Shown here piece by piece: positions 5,808 to 25,850 of a stretch of DNA of 64,000 nucleotides (position 1 is its first letter; each line of letters opens with the position of its first letter). The notes below the pieces were generated by a model. It saw nothing but the letters and a program-made list of their open reading frames with translations. It searched no databases and had not been told where the DNA came from. The translations under genes were made by a program, and so were the position numbers. The DNA is from an uncultured Bacteroidales bacterium. Its GTDB lineage: Bacteria; Bacteroidota; Bacteroidia; Bacteroidales; Muribaculaceae. The DNA lies in assembly GCA_902760865.1 (NCBI GenBank), contig CACWID010000006.1, positions 1 through 64,000 of the forward strand. Reading direction: 5' to 3'.

Positions 5808-5902
5808 AAGCCTAAAGGGTTAGTGTTTAATTTCAGGCAGTAAAGATACAACAATAATCGGACACCACCACCATTTCTCGCTGCAGGATTTCAAGCGCCG
5901 GG

Positions 5903-20470: not shown

Positions 20471-21166
20471 ATGAAACAATTATTGCTGATGGCATTTGTC
20501 CTGTTACAAGCATGGGCCGCCTCGTCCCAGGAGCTGCCCCAATTCCTGTACAATGACTATGAGGGGTGGACATATAACAACCCCGGCGTACCGCTCAGCC
20601 CCGAGGCCATCGGCAGTGCCAAGGTCCGCCTCTATGTGGACAGCCAGGGCCGGGTGCTCACGCTGACCTCGCCCGACTTCGCCTGCGCGGGGCTCGACAG
20701 CATCCACGCCGACGTCAGGTGGAAATCAGCCGACCAGACCGTCTCGTTGACCATGGTGCTGGATGACACCGAGGGCACTCCGCTGGACTCGGCGACCTGC
20801 CTGCCCTCCAACGCCGGCAGCGAGCAGGAGTTCGCCTACACGATAGCGGTCCCTGCAGGGCTGACGACGGCCCGTGTGAGGTTCGTCTCCTGGAATGCCG
20901 TGGCAGGCACCAGCGGGGCCGTCAGGAGGGTACTGTTGTCGGGCATCGCCGCAGTGACACCGCCACCCGTGGTGACCAGCGGTGACGTGGACGGCAACGG
21001 CAAGGTCAACATCGCCGACGTGACAACGCTCATCAACTACCTGCTGAGCAACCACGGCAACATCAACACCACGGCTGCCGACACCGACGGCAACGGCAAA
21101 ATCAGCATCGCCGACGTGACGACGCTCATCAACATGCTACTCAGCGGGAATTACGTCCGGGCGTGA
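20471..21166 (+). CDS. secreted protein with two dockerin-like repeats
   Basis: 231 residues. Signal peptide about 1-19 (LLQAWAASSQ). A beta-sandwich-like domain (about 22-165) resembles carbohydrate-binding modules. A Pro linker precedes two calcium-binding dockerin-type repeats, GDVDGNGKVNIADVTTLINY and DTDGNGKISIADVTTLINM, 36 residues apart, the full duplicated form. Such modules in Bacteroidales are thought to anchor or organise exported proteins, but no cohesin is visible in this window. The 3' end overlaps the convergent fucP-like gene by 16 bases. Confidence 0.8.
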   Translation: MKQLLLMAFVLLQAWAASSQELPQFLYNDYEGWTYNNPGVPLSPEAIGSAKVRLYVDSQGRVLTLTSPDFACAGLDSIHADVRWKSADQTVSLTMVLDDTEGTPLDSATCLPSNAGSEQEFAYTIAVPAGLTTARVRFVSWNAVAGTSGAVRRVLLSGIAAVTPPPVVTSGDVDGNGKVNIADVTTLINYLLSNHGNINTTAADTDGNGKISIADVTTLINMLLSGNYVRA

Positions 21167-22464
21167 CGCAGGCCGTAGAGCAGCACCACAACAAAGCACA
21201 GAACCGGAACGATGAACGAGAGGTTCACGGCAGGCAGGACAGTCACGTCGCTGTCGATGATCATCGCCTGAACGGCGGGCAAGAGGCTGCCTCCCAGGAT
21301 AGCCATGATCAGTCCGGCCGAACCGACCTCGGTGTCACGGGGCACCCCGCCCAGGGCGATGCCGTAGATGGTGGGGAACATCAGGCTCATGCAGGCCGAC
21401 ACCGCCACGAGGCAGCACATGCCCGTGCGCCCGCCCGCAAGGATGACGCCGCCCAGCAGCACGATGGCCAATGCAGCGAAGAAGGCCATCAGGCGCCCTG
21501 GCCTGAAATATTTCATCAGATAAATGTTGACAAAGCGCATCAGGCAGAAGATGACCATCGCCACGATGTTGTAGCGCTGGGAGAGCACCTCGGCGGCCTG
21601 TTCGGACATCCCCTCGGCCATGAACACGCGTGTGCCATACTGGATGATGAACGTCCAGCAGGTGATCTGCGCGCCCACATAGAAGAACTGGGCCACCACG
21701 CCGCGACGGTAGGGCCTGTTGCCCCACAGCCGCTTCACGGCGGGCCACAGGGGCTCATGGTTCTCACGGGCCGCCTGATGGACGGCAGGGATGCGCACGA
21801 GCTGCATCAGCACCAGCATCAGTACCAACACGATGCCCAGCAGGGTATAGGGTTGGGACAGCACGGCCAGGTCGCTCTGCTTCAGCACCTCGAACTCGGC
21901 GTCGCCGAGGGCTGCACGCTGGGCCGTGTCAAGCGGGGAAAGCCGCGCCTGGATGAAGTTCATCGCCACAAACATGCCCGCCAGCGACCCGATGGGGTTG
22001 AACGATTGGGCCAGGTTGAGGCGCCGCGTCGCGGTCTCGCGGTCTCCCATGAGCAGGATATAGGGGTTGGCGGTCGTCTCGAGGAACGACAGGCCGCAGG
22101 TCAGGATGAAGTAGGCGACCAGGAAGGGGGCAAAGCTGCCCATCGCCCGCGCGGGGATAAACAGCAGCACGCCTAGGGCATACAGGGACAGGCCCATCAC
22201 GATGCCGCTCTTGAAGGAGTGACGGCGGATGAACAGCGCAGCGGGCAACGCCATGCAGAAGTAGCCGCCATAGAAGGCCACCTGGACCATCGTGCCGTCG
22301 GTCACACTCATGCGGAAAATCTTGGAAAAGGCTTTGACCATCGGGTTGGTGATGTCGTTAGCAAAGCCCCACAGAGCAAAGCAGCAAGTCACGACGATGA
22401 AGGGCAGCACATAGCTCACGCCCTCACGCGTCACCAGCAGACGGGATTTCCTGTTATTCTTCAT
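21151..22464 (-). CDS. fucP: FucP-type sugar:H+ symporter (MFS)
   Basis: About 437 residues with 12 membrane segments, the size of L-fucose permeases. The N-terminal half has FALWGFANDITNPMVKAF, where the Asn/Asp pair matches FucP, and FLETTANPYILLMGDRETA, both diagnostic of the FucP/GlcP-type MFS branch. The inner membrane protein probably imports L-fucose or a related hexose with protons. The start is the ATG at 22464; the TTG two codons upstream is less likely. The mutarotase gene is 44 bases upstream on the same strand, then the broken kinase gene, so this is a small sugar-use operon. Glucose/galactose transporters share the fold. Confidence 0.88.
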   Translation of the reverse strand: MKNNRKSRLLVTREGVSYVLPFIVVTCCFALWGFANDITNPMVKAFSKIFRMSVTDGTMVQVAFYGGYFCMALPAALFIRRHSFKSGIVMGLSLYALGVLLFIPARAMGSFAPFLVAYFILTCGLSFLETTANPYILLMGDRETATRRLNLAQSFNPIGSLAGMFVAMNFIQARLSPLDTAQRAALGDAEFEVLKQSDLAVLSQPYTLLGIVLVLMLVLMQLVRIPAVHQAARENHEPLWPAVKRLWGNRPYRRGVVAQFFYVGAQITCWTFIIQYGTRVFMAEGMSEQAAEVLSQRYNIVAMVIFCLMRFVNIYLMKYFRPGRLMAFFAALAIVLLGGVILAGGRTGMCCLVAVSACMSLMFPTIYGIALGGVPRDTEVGSAGLIMAILGGSLLPAVQAMIIDSDVTVLPAVNLSFIVPVLCFVVVLLYGLRHART

Positions 22465-22487
22465 TTGCAATCAATTATCTTTATGAG

Positions 22488-22513
22488 GAGTCGCAAGATT
22501 CTGCGTCTCTACA
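22488..22513. repeat. degenerate single palindrome of the GAGACGC family
   Basis: A worn copy (GAGTCGCAAGA/TTCTGCGTCTC) in the gap between the mutarotase and fucP-like genes; its right part reaches the mutarotase stop codon. Confidence 0.65.
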
Positions 22514-22850
22514 AGCCAGATTCGAGTTTGAAGATACGCTCCATCAACTGCCACTTGGCCGTCGAGGGGGCATCGGGGTCGCAGCCCTGGAACTGGGCGA
22601 CATAGGCCTCCCACTCGGCCTGACGCGGCAGTGTCGCCAGGCGCGCGTTGTCCTTTTCCCAGTCAAAATCATCAACCGTGTCGCATATCATGAACAGGCG
22701 GTTGCCGAGGATGTAAATCTGCATATCGAGGATGCCCACGCTGCGGATGCCCTCCTGTATCTCGGGCCACACATGGGCGTGGGCCTCAACGTATTTCTCA
22801 ATCATTTCGCGGTCGTCCCGCAATTCTAAAGTCTGGCAGTATCGTTTCAT
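22509..22850 (-). CDS. L-rhamnose/L-fucose mutarotase family protein
   Basis: 113 residues, the standard length of the RhaM/DUF718 family. Members interconvert alpha and beta anomers of deoxy-sugars so that kinases or isomerases receive the right form. The sequence shows the ferredoxin-like alpha/beta pattern with HAHVWPEIQEGIRSVGILDM (catalytic His region), IYILGNRLFMI and a Trp-rich end (WEAYVAQF). It lies between the kinase remnant and the FucP-type transporter, which suggests an L-fucose-like substrate rather than rhamnose. Cytoplasmic. Confidence 0.85.
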   Translation of the reverse strand: MKRYCQTLELRDDREMIEKYVEAHAHVWPEIQEGIRSVGILDMQIYILGNRLFMICDTVDDFDWEKDNARLATLPRQAEWEAYVAQFQGCDPDAPSTAKWQLMERIFKLESGL

Positions 22851-22871
22851 AGTCAGTTGTCAGTTATTATT

Positions 22872-22920
22872 CTAGATTGTCTAGATGATCTAGATTTTCT
22901 AGATAGTCTAGAAAATTTAG
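22872..22920. repeat. nonamer array (TCTAGATNN x5)
   Basis: CTAG recurs at 22872, 22881, 22890, 22899 and 22908, exact period 9, in the gap between the kinase pseudogene's stop and the mutarotase start. It shares the CTAG core but not the 7-base period of most arrays here. Confidence 0.85.
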
Positions 22921-22929
22921 AGGGGCTCA

Positions 22930-24031
22930 CTAGAGCCTAATAGTGAGAGGGATGGCTCCCTCGGGGAAATGAGCACGGTCGCGGCAGACCAGGGCGAGAT
23001 AGCCGCCTCCGCCTGCGCCGGGCATCTTACACGCCAGCACGCCGTCCATGGCGCTGTAGCGGTCGATGTAGTCCTGCACGCCGGGCTGGATCATCGCGGG
23101 GAACATGGCCACCTGGGCCTCGAAGGAGTCACGATAGGCCGCGGCAAAGGCCTCCAGGTCACGGCGCTGGATGGCGTCCCAGCAGCGGTCGGCAGCAGCG
23201 GCCAGGGCACGCACCTTGACGGGCGTGATGTCCTTGCCCTCGACGACGCTGCAGCCCGGACGGCGCGGGAACATCGGTATCAGGCACAGGTGGTCCTCAA
23301 GCCAGCCGAGCAACGCGGGATCTTGGGTATATTCAATCTTCTCGGGCCAATAGCTGCCGTTATAGTAGTGGCGGGCAAGGCCCGGGACGCAGATGCCGAT
23401 GGCATCCTGGGCCCCGCTGACAATGCCGTCGCTGCGCTCGGGGTCGTTCTCGAGGCAGAAGACCAGGCGGGCCAGCATCTCGGGGTCCATGTCGGGCAGA
23501 CGGTAGGGCCACACGCGCCTGATGGTGTTGCGCGTGCTGGTGGACAAGCCGCAGCGCTCGCGGACCTCAAACGTCGGCTCCAGCGAGATGGTCAACGCCC
23601 ATCCCGGGGCGTGACAGGAAACGTAGGGCTGGTCAATCCATGTGCCGGCCAGGTCCAGGCGCGTGGGCAGCTGGCAGGTCGCCCGCTTGAGGGCGGTGCT
23701 GCTGCGGGCGTCCAGCCCCTCGGCCGGGACACGCTGCAGCACGATATACTCCATGCCGCGCTCGCGGCACAGCCGGCGCTTCTCCTCACGGTCGCCGTCC
23801 TCGTTGACCACCAGGCAGTCGGGACGGACGATGTCGAGCGTCGGCAGGAAGTCGAGCATGCCGTCGCCCTGGTTGATATAGGCCTCCTTGACATAGCGGA
23901 TGGCCTGCACCATGAACAGGCGCTCCCGCTCGTTGTAAAGCGTCTTATGGCCCTTCAGGTGCTAAGAACTCCACATGGCCCGAATGCAGCAGGTCGTAGC
24001 AGCCCGATACAAAAACCTTCTTGTTGCTCAC
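22930..24031 (-). pseudogene. nucleotidyltransferase + GHMP sugar kinase fusion, disrupted
   Basis: The first segment (GTG at 24031) reads MSNKKVFVSGCYDLLHSGHV, a cytidylyltransferase-like start with the HSGH nucleotide motif, then stops at about 23945. The reading continues in another frame as LKGHKTLYNERERLFMVQAI and runs open to 22930, covering the rest of the transferase domain (PDCLVVNEDGDREEK) and a GHMP kinase with GLSTSTR, SGAQDAIGI and MPGAGGGGYLA. Family members normally have about 25 more residues (the YGDLYVGIGSD-type segment) at the junction, so an out-of-frame internal deletion near 23967 is inferred. The product would be a sugar kinase/nucleotidyltransferase working with the mutarotase and symporter. 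An assembly error is the alternative. Confidence 0.75.
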
Positions 24032-24153: not shown

Positions 24154-25509
24154 TCATTCTGGAACGCACTTAAGCGTCTGACGGATGTCTTCGTCCGAGA
24201 TTCTGTGGTTCATCAGATCGCCGTTCAGGTACTGGTCATAGGCGCTCATATCGATCAGGCCGTGGCCCGAGAGGTTGAACAGGATGACCTTCTCCTCGCC
24301 TGTCTGCTTGCATTTCTCGGCCTCACGGATGGCGGCGGCGATGGCATGGCTCGACTCGGGGGCGGGGATGATGCCCTCGGTGCGGGCGAAAAGCATGCCG
24401 GCTTCAAATGACTCGAGCTGGGGGATGTCCACGCCATGCATCAAACCGTCCTTGAGCAGCTGTGAAATAATCACTCCGGCGCCGTGATAGCGCAAGCCGC
24501 CGGCATGGATGTTGGCGGGCTTGAAGCTGTGGCCCAGCGTGAACATCGGCAGCAGGGGCGTGTAGCCGGCCTCGTCGCCGAAGTCGTAGCGGAACTCTCC
24601 GCGGGTGAGTTTCGGGCAGCTCTCGGGCTCGGCGGCGATGAACTCGGTCCGCTTGCCGTCCTTCAGGTTGTGGCGCATGAAGGGGAAAGCGATGCCGCCG
24701 AAGTTGGAACCGCCGCCGAAACAGGCAATCACCACGTCGGGATATTCCCCGGCCATGGCCATCTGTTTCTCGGCCTCAAGGCCGATGATGGTCTGATGCA
24801 GCCCCACGTGGTTAAGCACTGAACCCAAGGTATATTTGCAGTTGGGCGTCGTGGTGGCCAGCTCCACGGCCTCGGAGATGGCCGTTCCCAGCGAACCCGG
24901 ATGATGCGGATCACGCGTGATGATATCCTTGCCGGCACGGGTGGACATGGACGGCGAACCCGTCACAGCGGCCCCGAAGGTGCGCATGATGGATGCGCGG
25001 TAGGGCTTCTGCTGCATCGAGATCTTCACCTGATAGACGGCAGCCTCCAGGCCGAACACCCTCGCGGCGTAGGCCAGGGCGGCACCCCACTGCCCGGCAC
25101 CGGTCTCGGTAGTGACATTGGTGGTGCCTTCCTGCTTGGCATAGTAGCACTGGGGCAGGGCCGAATTGACCTTGTGGGACCCTAGCGGGTTGACCGACTC
25201 GTTCTTGAAGTAGATGTGGGCCGGGGTCTGCAAGGCCTCTTCCAGGGAATAGGCACGCACGAGGGGCGTGGAGCGATAGGCTTTGTATTTCTCCAGCACC
25301 TCCTCGGGGATGGGGATGAAATCGTGCTCGGTGTCGAGTTCCTGGACGCAGCATTCGCGGGGGAAGATATGGGCCAGGTCGTCCACGCCCAGCGGCTGCC
25401 TGGTGGCAGGATGGATGGGCGGCATGGGCTTGTTGGGCATATCGGCCTGGATGTTATACCATGCGGTGGGCAACTCGTTCTCCTGGAGGATAAATCTTTT
25501 CTGTTTCAT
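24154..25509 (-). CDS. trpB: tryptophan synthase beta-like protein (TrpB2 type)
   Basis: 451 residues, longer than classical TrpB (about 400) and typical of the TrpB2 branch. It is a fold-type II PLP enzyme that condenses serine with indole to tryptophan. NPLGSHKVNSA holds the PLP lysine, TETGAGQWGAAL is the catalytic-loop signature, and CFGGGSNFGG binds the cofactor phosphate. The C-terminal half contains NLSGHGLIDM. trpA is not adjacent, which is common for trpB2. Expression is probably controlled by the leader peptide and terminator at 25542-25671, and this in turn supports a true role in tryptophan synthesis. Confidence 0.92.
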   Translation of the reverse strand: MKQKRFILQENELPTAWYNIQADMPNKPMPPIHPATRQPLGVDDLAHIFPRECCVQELDTEHDFIPIPEEVLEKYKAYRSTPLVRAYSLEEALQTPAHIYFKNESVNPLGSHKVNSALPQCYYAKQEGTTNVTTETGAGQWGAALAYAARVFGLEAAVYQVKISMQQKPYRASIMRTFGAAVTGSPSMSTRAGKDIITRDPHHPGSLGTAISEAVELATTTPNCKYTLGSVLNHVGLHQTIIGLEAEKQMAMAGEYPDVVIACFGGGSNFGGIAFPFMRHNLKDGKRTEFIAAEPESCPKLTRGEFRYDFGDEAGYTPLLPMFTLGHSFKPANIHAGGLRYHGAGVIISQLLKDGLMHGVDIPQLESFEAGMLFARTEGIIPAPESSHAIAAAIREAEKCKQTGEEKVILFNLSGHGLIDMSAYDQYLNGDLMNHRISDEDIRQTLKCVPE

Positions 25510-25541
25510 TGTTGATGATGTTTTTGGGTGATTAATATTTT

Positions 25542-25573
25542 AAAAGGCCTGTCGCAAGTACGACAGACCTTTT
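25542..25573 (-). terminator. trp attenuator terminator hairpin
   Basis: In the trpB direction, AAAAGG.CTGTCG, loop TACTTG, CGACAG..CCTTTT: a GC-rich stem of six pairs plus an A/T extension ending in a short T-run, 33 bases before the trpB ATG. Because it lies upstream of the gene and downstream of a Trp-rich leader ORF, I read it as an attenuator rather than a gene-end terminator. A small hairpin GTATGA/TCATAC (25587-25603) just upstream could be a pause or alternative structure. Confidence 0.7.
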
Positions 25574-25614
25574 ACTTTTTATCATTGTATGAGAATTTCA
25601 TACGGTCAGGCGAC

Positions 25615-25671
25615 TCACGACTTTTTCAATCTTGAGCTGCGCCACCACCAGTATGATGAAATCATTGTCAT
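25615..25671 (-). CDS. trpL: trp leader peptide (three consecutive Trp codons)
   Basis: An 18-codon ORF encoding MTMISSYWWWRSSRLKKS, start ATG at 25671, stop TGA at 25615-25617; the Trp codons are at 25642-25650. It begins about 18 bases after the expected transcription start and ends about 40 bases before the terminator stem. Three adjacent TGG codons in an 18-residue peptide ahead of trpB are the hallmark of ribosome-stalling attenuation: with low charged tRNA-Trp the ribosome stalls and the terminator should not form. The segment just after the stop contains GTCGC, which can pair with GCGAC in the terminator arm. A second in-frame ATG is at 25665. Confidence 0.75.
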   Translation of the reverse strand: MTMISSYWWWRSSRLKKS

Positions 25672-25695
25672 TTCTTTATATTTATGTTGACGCGG

Positions 25696-25726
25696 CAAAT
25701 TTATATTCATTTCTGTTACCAAACAA
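25696..25726 (-). promoter_or_regulatory. trp leader promoter
   Basis: On the minus strand, TTG (25724-25726), 20 bases, TAAATTTG (25696-25703); the leader ORF starts about 25 bases further on. Confidence 0.75.
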
Positions 25727-25850
25727 GCATTTTTTTGAAAAAATTGTCCCTCGGCCGCAATAACTACGGTAACCGGTCAGGTCGCCGCACCCTGTTCCCG
25801 GAAAGCGAGAAAACCATGCCCATAAAAATCAATGCATTTGCACATTTGAT

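Follow-up and report, generated by a model that had tools for sequence, protein, structure and literature searches.

In the trp attenuator of Escherichia coli, tandem Trp codons in a leader peptide ORF are coupled to a 1:2 / 2:3 / 3:4 pairing logic, and a full operon is placed under control. The locus described here resembles that system in its tandem Trp codons and in its proposed pairing logic, yet it stands ahead of a lone trpB2 gene rather than a full operon. Trp leaders are already known in the phylum Bacteroidota ahead of trp operons. Rfam holds RF01692 (Bacteroid-trp), named 'Bacteroidete tryptophan peptide leader RNA' and present as a row in Table 1 of Weinberg 2010 (PMC2864571), and Bacteroid-trp RNA is placed ahead of the trp operon in F. 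psychrophilum (PMC6414381), clues for leader-peptide attenuation are given for amino-acid operons of the same species (PMC9723704), and short ORFs are reported within 5' UTRs of B. thetaiotaomicron (PMC7366714). Further literature is provided by PMC2494555 and PMC6429828. The initial annotation of our locus regarded such control as little described in Bacteroidales, a view that finds no support, given RF01692 and the presence of the same design ahead of many canonical trp genes.

TrpB2 and indole are treated in PMC11085991 and PMC1854888, and a TrpB2 paralogue of Thermococcus kodakarensis has been tied to indole salvage (Hiyama 2014, as cited in PMC11085991). The TrpB2 considered here is probably likewise an indole-salvage paralogue, whereas the T. 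kodakarensis protein is archaeal and a leader goes unmentioned for it in the accessible portion of PMC11085991. Within the open-access literature, a body of text outside which most subscription papers fall, we found no report of a Trp leader ahead of trpB2 in the portions available. The attachment of the leader to TrpB2, together with a likely role in indole salvage, is the part of this system that is likely to be new.

The locus lies in a window of 64,000 nucleotides (contig CACWID010000006.1, positions 1 to 64,000) from an uncultured Bacteroidales bacterium. Between 25727 and 24154 the minus strand carries, in this order, promoter-like boxes, a leader ORF, a hairpin over the end of that ORF, a small variable hairpin, a terminator-type hairpin and trpB2:

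25696..25727 (-): putative promoter-like boxes, CTTG at 25727-25724 or TTTG at 25723-25720, and TAAATTTG at 25703-25696 (sequence)
25615..25671 (-): leader peptide ORF MTMISSYWWWRSSRLKKS, 18 codons, stop included (sequence, conservation)
25642..25650 (-): three consecutive Trp codons, the proposed stall site (sequence, aligned leaders)
25609..25643 (-): hairpin 1:2, GGCG..GCUCA.GAUU / AGUC.UGAGU..CGCC (fold, pair counts)
25604..25612 (-): CGCCUGACC, proposed as segment 2 of an antiterminator (pairs with the terminator 5' arm in the stalled-ribosome calculation)
25587..25603 (-): middle hairpin, GUAUG/CAUAC (fold; variable among relatives, with other versions seen by eye)
25542..25573 (-): terminator-type hairpin, AAAAGGUCUGUCG / CGACAGGCCUUUU (covarying stem; -20.0 kcal/mol)
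24154..25509 (-): trpB2, the proposed controlled gene, a TrpB-like PLP enzyme of 451 aa (profile scores, structure matches)

The boxes, the 18-codon ORF with its three Trp codons, the terminator-type hairpin and trpB2 all lie where the initial annotation had put them, the promoter being putative. The boxes were judged promoter-like against the Bacteroidota promoter consensus, and a TATATTTGC-like box with an upstream CTTG recurs, by eye, among aligned relatives. The base of hairpin 1:2 overlaps the third Trp codon and its top covers the end of the leader ORF, while 32 bases separate the terminator-type hairpin (25573-25542) from the trpB2 ATG at 25509. Folding of the leader as a whole (25690-25510) yields -51.7 kcal/mol, compared with -29.3 (sd 3.7) in 200 shuffles (z -6.0).

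This arrangement is conserved among close relatives. A search with TrpB2 gave matches in 77 of 101 genomes of the same genus, and full-length proteins of 93-100% identity occur in 27 of them, our own genome counted; with G060 (a copy in two pieces of 88 and 90%, with one internal stop) and G032 (a cut copy, 96%), the number of genomes carrying the TrpB2 type of the window comes to 29. The leader adjoins trpB2 in 26 of these 29 according to model R2, which has the window and some of these very leaders in its training set. Two of the other genomes (G080, L112/L011; G088, L141/L013) have leader and trpB2 on separate contig ends, and in the last (G078, L025) the terminator is kept ahead of trpB2 and the Trp codons are gone. 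By eye, the contig ends of G080 and G088 resemble the termini of insertion elements, which have perhaps inserted between leader and trpB2. L064 and L088 also have a terminator without Trp codons ahead of trpB2, and all three terminator-only regions may represent decay, constitutive termination or an assembly artefact. No Trp leader is present at three loci read (L028-L030) from genus genomes with a TrpB2 of approximately 70% identity, and no genus genome with such a TrpB2 exceeds 33 bits in an R2 search under strict filters.

Among named genomes, an ORF scan located the leader at 15 of the best 80 trpB2 loci listed, five of which are contigs of the genus set, giving 10 others; viral contigs, scanned for the motif, yielded nothing. 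At least two Trp codons (as WWW, WCW or WW) occur in all 33 aligned trpB2 leaders, a set chosen for having Trp codons, from which L011 and L013 (fewer than 120 bases upstream), the duplicates L031-L035 and L059 (contigs of genus loci) and the remnant L025 were left out. The near-copy L027 is absent from alignment A1, L147 is in no alignment, and L141 and others are in A3, not A4. In the aligned regions upstream of trpB orthologues, a comparison that the initial annotation had proposed, Trp codons and hairpin are conserved in relatives and compensatory changes occur in the stems.

Evidence for the stems comes from two alignments. In A1, made up of the 33 trpB2 leaders selected for Trp codons, pairing holds in 97.1% of cells, and double changes occur at three pairs of the terminator. 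In A4 (32 sequences, canonical trp leaders included) changes on both sides affect 12 of 21 pairs, with 45 double-change cells against 16.9 in shuffles and none of 500 shuffles as high. The paired share drops to 36-47% in slid versions of A4. The antiterminator behaves differently: its pairs are kept in most sequences and hardly covary (two double-change pairs with hairpin 1 included, 46 of 500 shuffles as high), and since they vary so little, covariation is no proof of the antiterminator. The initial annotation had pointed to a GTCGC able to compete for the GCGAC of the terminator, which belongs to the 3' arm. The competing pairing seen in the folds joins CG.C.GACC to GGUC.G.CG of the terminator 5' arm and is not confined to GTCGC/GCGAC.

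Ribosome position was considered by calculating the probability that the first four bases of the terminator 5' arm pair with RNA further upstream while the 3' arm has yet to emerge, with ribosome footprints being assumed. Mean antiterminator pairing in the 33 trpB2 leaders is 0.89 for a ribosome stalled on Trp and 0.24 for one at the stop, compared with 0.42 when no ribosome is present. Stalled pairing is still 0.57 when segment 2 and the spacer are shuffled, the real value being higher in 31 of the 33 leaders; the 12 operon leaders give 0.79 against 0.67 in the shuffled control, with the real value higher in 9 of 12. The mutually exclusive folds that the initial annotation had envisaged are favoured by this calculation, but their antiterminator half draws little from covariation.

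As a reading of sequence, ribosome-mediated attenuation ahead of trpB2, which the initial annotation had put forward, is well supported by the conserved Trp codons, the stem covariation and the ribosome-dependent alternative folds, and the leader ORF is rich in codons for Trp, the presumed end product. With plentiful Trp-tRNA, the ribosome would reach the leader stop and cover CGCCUGACC, upon which the terminator hairpin would form and transcription would end. With scarce Trp-tRNA, it would instead stall on the three Trp codons and mask the base of hairpin 1:2, leaving CGCCUGACC free to pair with the terminator 5' arm, and trpB2 would be transcribed. TrpB2 would in turn make Trp from serine and free indole. 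Taken as a whole, we consider it probable that the lone trpB2 is controlled by a ribosome-mediated attenuator of transcription, of the kind formed by Bacteroidales trp leaders, and that serine and free indole are the most likely substrates for Trp synthesis by TrpB2.

The relationship of the window element to RF01692 is close in design. Both are Trp leader RNAs of Bacteroidetes, RF01692 being found ahead of the trp operon whereas the window element is found ahead of trpB2. Against RF01692 the element scores 40.8 bits (E 0.0013 for a search of 311 bases, 0.28 for one of the entire window), below the gathering cut-off of 49, at which it goes unreported, and it aligns across the entire model (1-131 of 131). 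None of 19 related loci reaches the cut-off, and a search of nine of them at E up to 1 gave no match. Formal membership of the family is consequently lacking, and it is the alignment over the full length of the model, with the common design, that speaks for a relation. Judging by these scores, leaders of this group seem to escape the Rfam Trp-leader model.

Leaders of the same design precede canonical trp genes as well. The five TrpA-bearing genomes of the genus (5/101) all have, by inspection, a WW leader ahead of canonical trpB, four of which R2 recovers (that of G003 is missed), and the lone canonical trpB of G001, a genome without detectable TrpA, has a WW leader as well. In other genomes, canonical trpB occurs in 12 of 20 stretches around trpA and is preceded by a WWW leader in all 12, and four of these genomes (G415, G420, G421 and G422) each possess a canonical trpB leader plus a leader-bearing trpB2. 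R2 matches are found in 208 of the 393 genomes of an order-wide sample (E up to 0.001), a figure that is not a count of Trp leaders, given that some weak matches of model R1 are plain terminators. Specifically, four R1 matches of 31-40 bits (L144, L146, L151, L152) have no Trp leader and resemble plain terminators; L145 (R1, 35 bits) is a real leader, and nine more loci, at 13.7-22.9 bits, lie outside the inspected set. Matches of R1 or R2 on the opposite strand at the same place, which look like the reversed terminator stem, were excluded.

Besides our own, each of the 29 best R2 matches includes a short ORF holding two or more Trp codons, an outcome towards which a model trained on such leaders is biased. 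Canonical TrpB lies 3' of the leader in 26 of the 29 (blastp), and the genes at the other three (L174, L196 and L201) are by eye TrpD-, TrpE- and TrpD-like, respectively. The window scores 126.6 bits against R2, its sequence being in the training set. Most canonical Bacteroidales trp leaders share with trpB2 leaders a terminator with a GGYCUGUCG-type arm, in addition to WWW or WW codons and a CUC..GAG hairpin, but segment 2 is GAGAAGAUAGCC in several Prevotella-type operon leaders and GAGUCGC..GACC in most trpB2 leaders. The window element has the conserved Trp codons, the CUC/GAG hairpin and the terminator, with covariation, that characterise leaders of Bacteroidales trp genes. In one genome, G784 (L205, L206), three separate leaders precede canonical trpB, a gene that is trpC-like by eye and another that is trpE-like by eye, which suggests that the leader travels along when trp genes split up.

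The window element seems to be related to the trp-operon attenuator and to have become attached to TrpB2. One clade of the TrpB2 tree (SH-aLRT 98) takes in 29 of the 34 leader-bearing rows, along with a single remnant and a single leaderless row, and the other five leaders are scattered. At least 7 or 8 changes of the leader are needed on the TrpB2 protein tree, and losses or repeated gains have therefore occurred. In the leader tree L045 groups with operon leaders, and this locus may represent an independent attachment to trpB2 of a leader resembling those of operons. A single origin of the trpB2 leaders is neither rejected nor demonstrated (AU p 0.094 with all 33 leaders, 0.281 when L045 is dropped).

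Turning to the controlled gene, the window TrpB2 exceeds the cut-offs of two profiles (NF009057, 687 bits, cut-off 366; TIGR01415, 586.4 bits, cut-off 518.85), and the closest solved structures are 6hul, 4qys and 6hte. Our own genome gave no match to TrpA, TrpC (IGPS) or TrpF (PRAI) in an assembly that is 95% complete, so that the absence of these genes is not absolute. Where they are detected in the genus, the three co-occur in the same 5 of 101 genomes. Since TrpA, TrpC and TrpF are undetectable in the genome, free indole is the likelier substrate and indole salvage a likelier role than de novo synthesis. The output of TrpB2 in this genome is thus most likely Trp salvaged from indole, which sharpens, and agrees with, the place in tryptophan supply that the initial annotation had argued for. 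For TrpB2 in Bacteroidota this provides a functional clue, in that a gene of uncertain role bears a leader predicted to sense Trp, in a genomic setting that makes free indole the likeliest source for Trp synthesis. The same genome encodes tryptophanase (L204, G000:C11:36648-38000; NF053783, 922.9 bits, cut-off 750), and indole release and recapture may coexist in it.

Outside the genus sample, TrpA was found in 9 of 10 genomes with a leader-bearing trpB2 and in 32 of 39 with a leaderless one, a comparison that covers 49 of 74 intended loci. We reject, on these counts, a general rule tying the leader to loss of TrpA, and indole salvage is consequently not the sole setting in which the leader occurs. 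A fuller scenario, to which we give even weight for and against, is that a relative of the trp-operon attenuator joined the lone trpB2 and, in a genus (some members of rumen type) mostly without TrpA, TrpC and TrpF, now turns on the recapture of indole under a shortage of Trp-tRNA, the genome of the window also encoding tryptophanase.

Several alternative explanations may be considered for these observations. The simplest is a chance short ORF beside an unrelated terminator, and it gains something from a second short WWW ORF elsewhere in the window (MTPRRLKSCSEKWWWCPIIVVSLLPEIKH at 5873, minus strand) and from those weak model matches that are terminators without a Trp leader. Short ATG ORFs with TGGTGGTGG number two in the window, compared with an average of 0.03 across 60 dinucleotide shuffles, and the conservation, covariation and placement of the element leave chance a negligible probability. 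A more substantial possibility is that leader peptide and hairpins influence trpB2 at the level of translation or RNA stability and not through transcription termination. The U run 3' of the window's terminator-type hairpin consists of four U only, short U runs are a feature of hairpins in the genus, and a simple terminator scan of the window called none on the minus strand at the leader. Against this, among the 23 genus leaders aligned, 33-61 nt lie between the end of the hairpin core and the start of trpB2, which is thus left uncovered, the stem and its A/U flanks covary as one unit, and U runs are longer in the operon versions (mean T in the 8 bases past the stem core: 4.3 for the 23 genus leaders, 5.1 for another 10 trpB2 leaders and 5.5 for 12 operon leaders). 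An effect other than termination accordingly appears distinctly improbable to us.

A further alternative accepts the leader as proposed but gives TrpB2 a different task, either another PLP reaction or Trp synthesis together with an undetected TrpA. TIGR01415 is named as merely TrpB-like and is of the hypothetical equivalog type, and the genome is incomplete, both of which leave room for such a role. On the other side, the leader belongs to the kind found at trp genes, the GSHK and TETGAGQWG motifs of TrpB2 align with those of 6hul (named tryptophan synthase beta chain), and TrpA, IGPS and PRAI are unmatched in 96 of the 101 genus genomes. We regard a different task as unlikely, if less so than an effect on translation or stability, and favour attenuation of a TrpB2 that would use free indole.

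The neighbourhood of the gene was also inspected. On the minus strand 3' of trpB2 (window 21154-23913) are genes for a 327-residue protein unmatched in Pfam (E up to 0.001) as well as for an L-rhamnose mutarotase and an MFS transporter. A type I dockerin domain (Pfam PF00404, 51.9 bits) is carried by a small protein encoded on the plus strand at 20471-21163.
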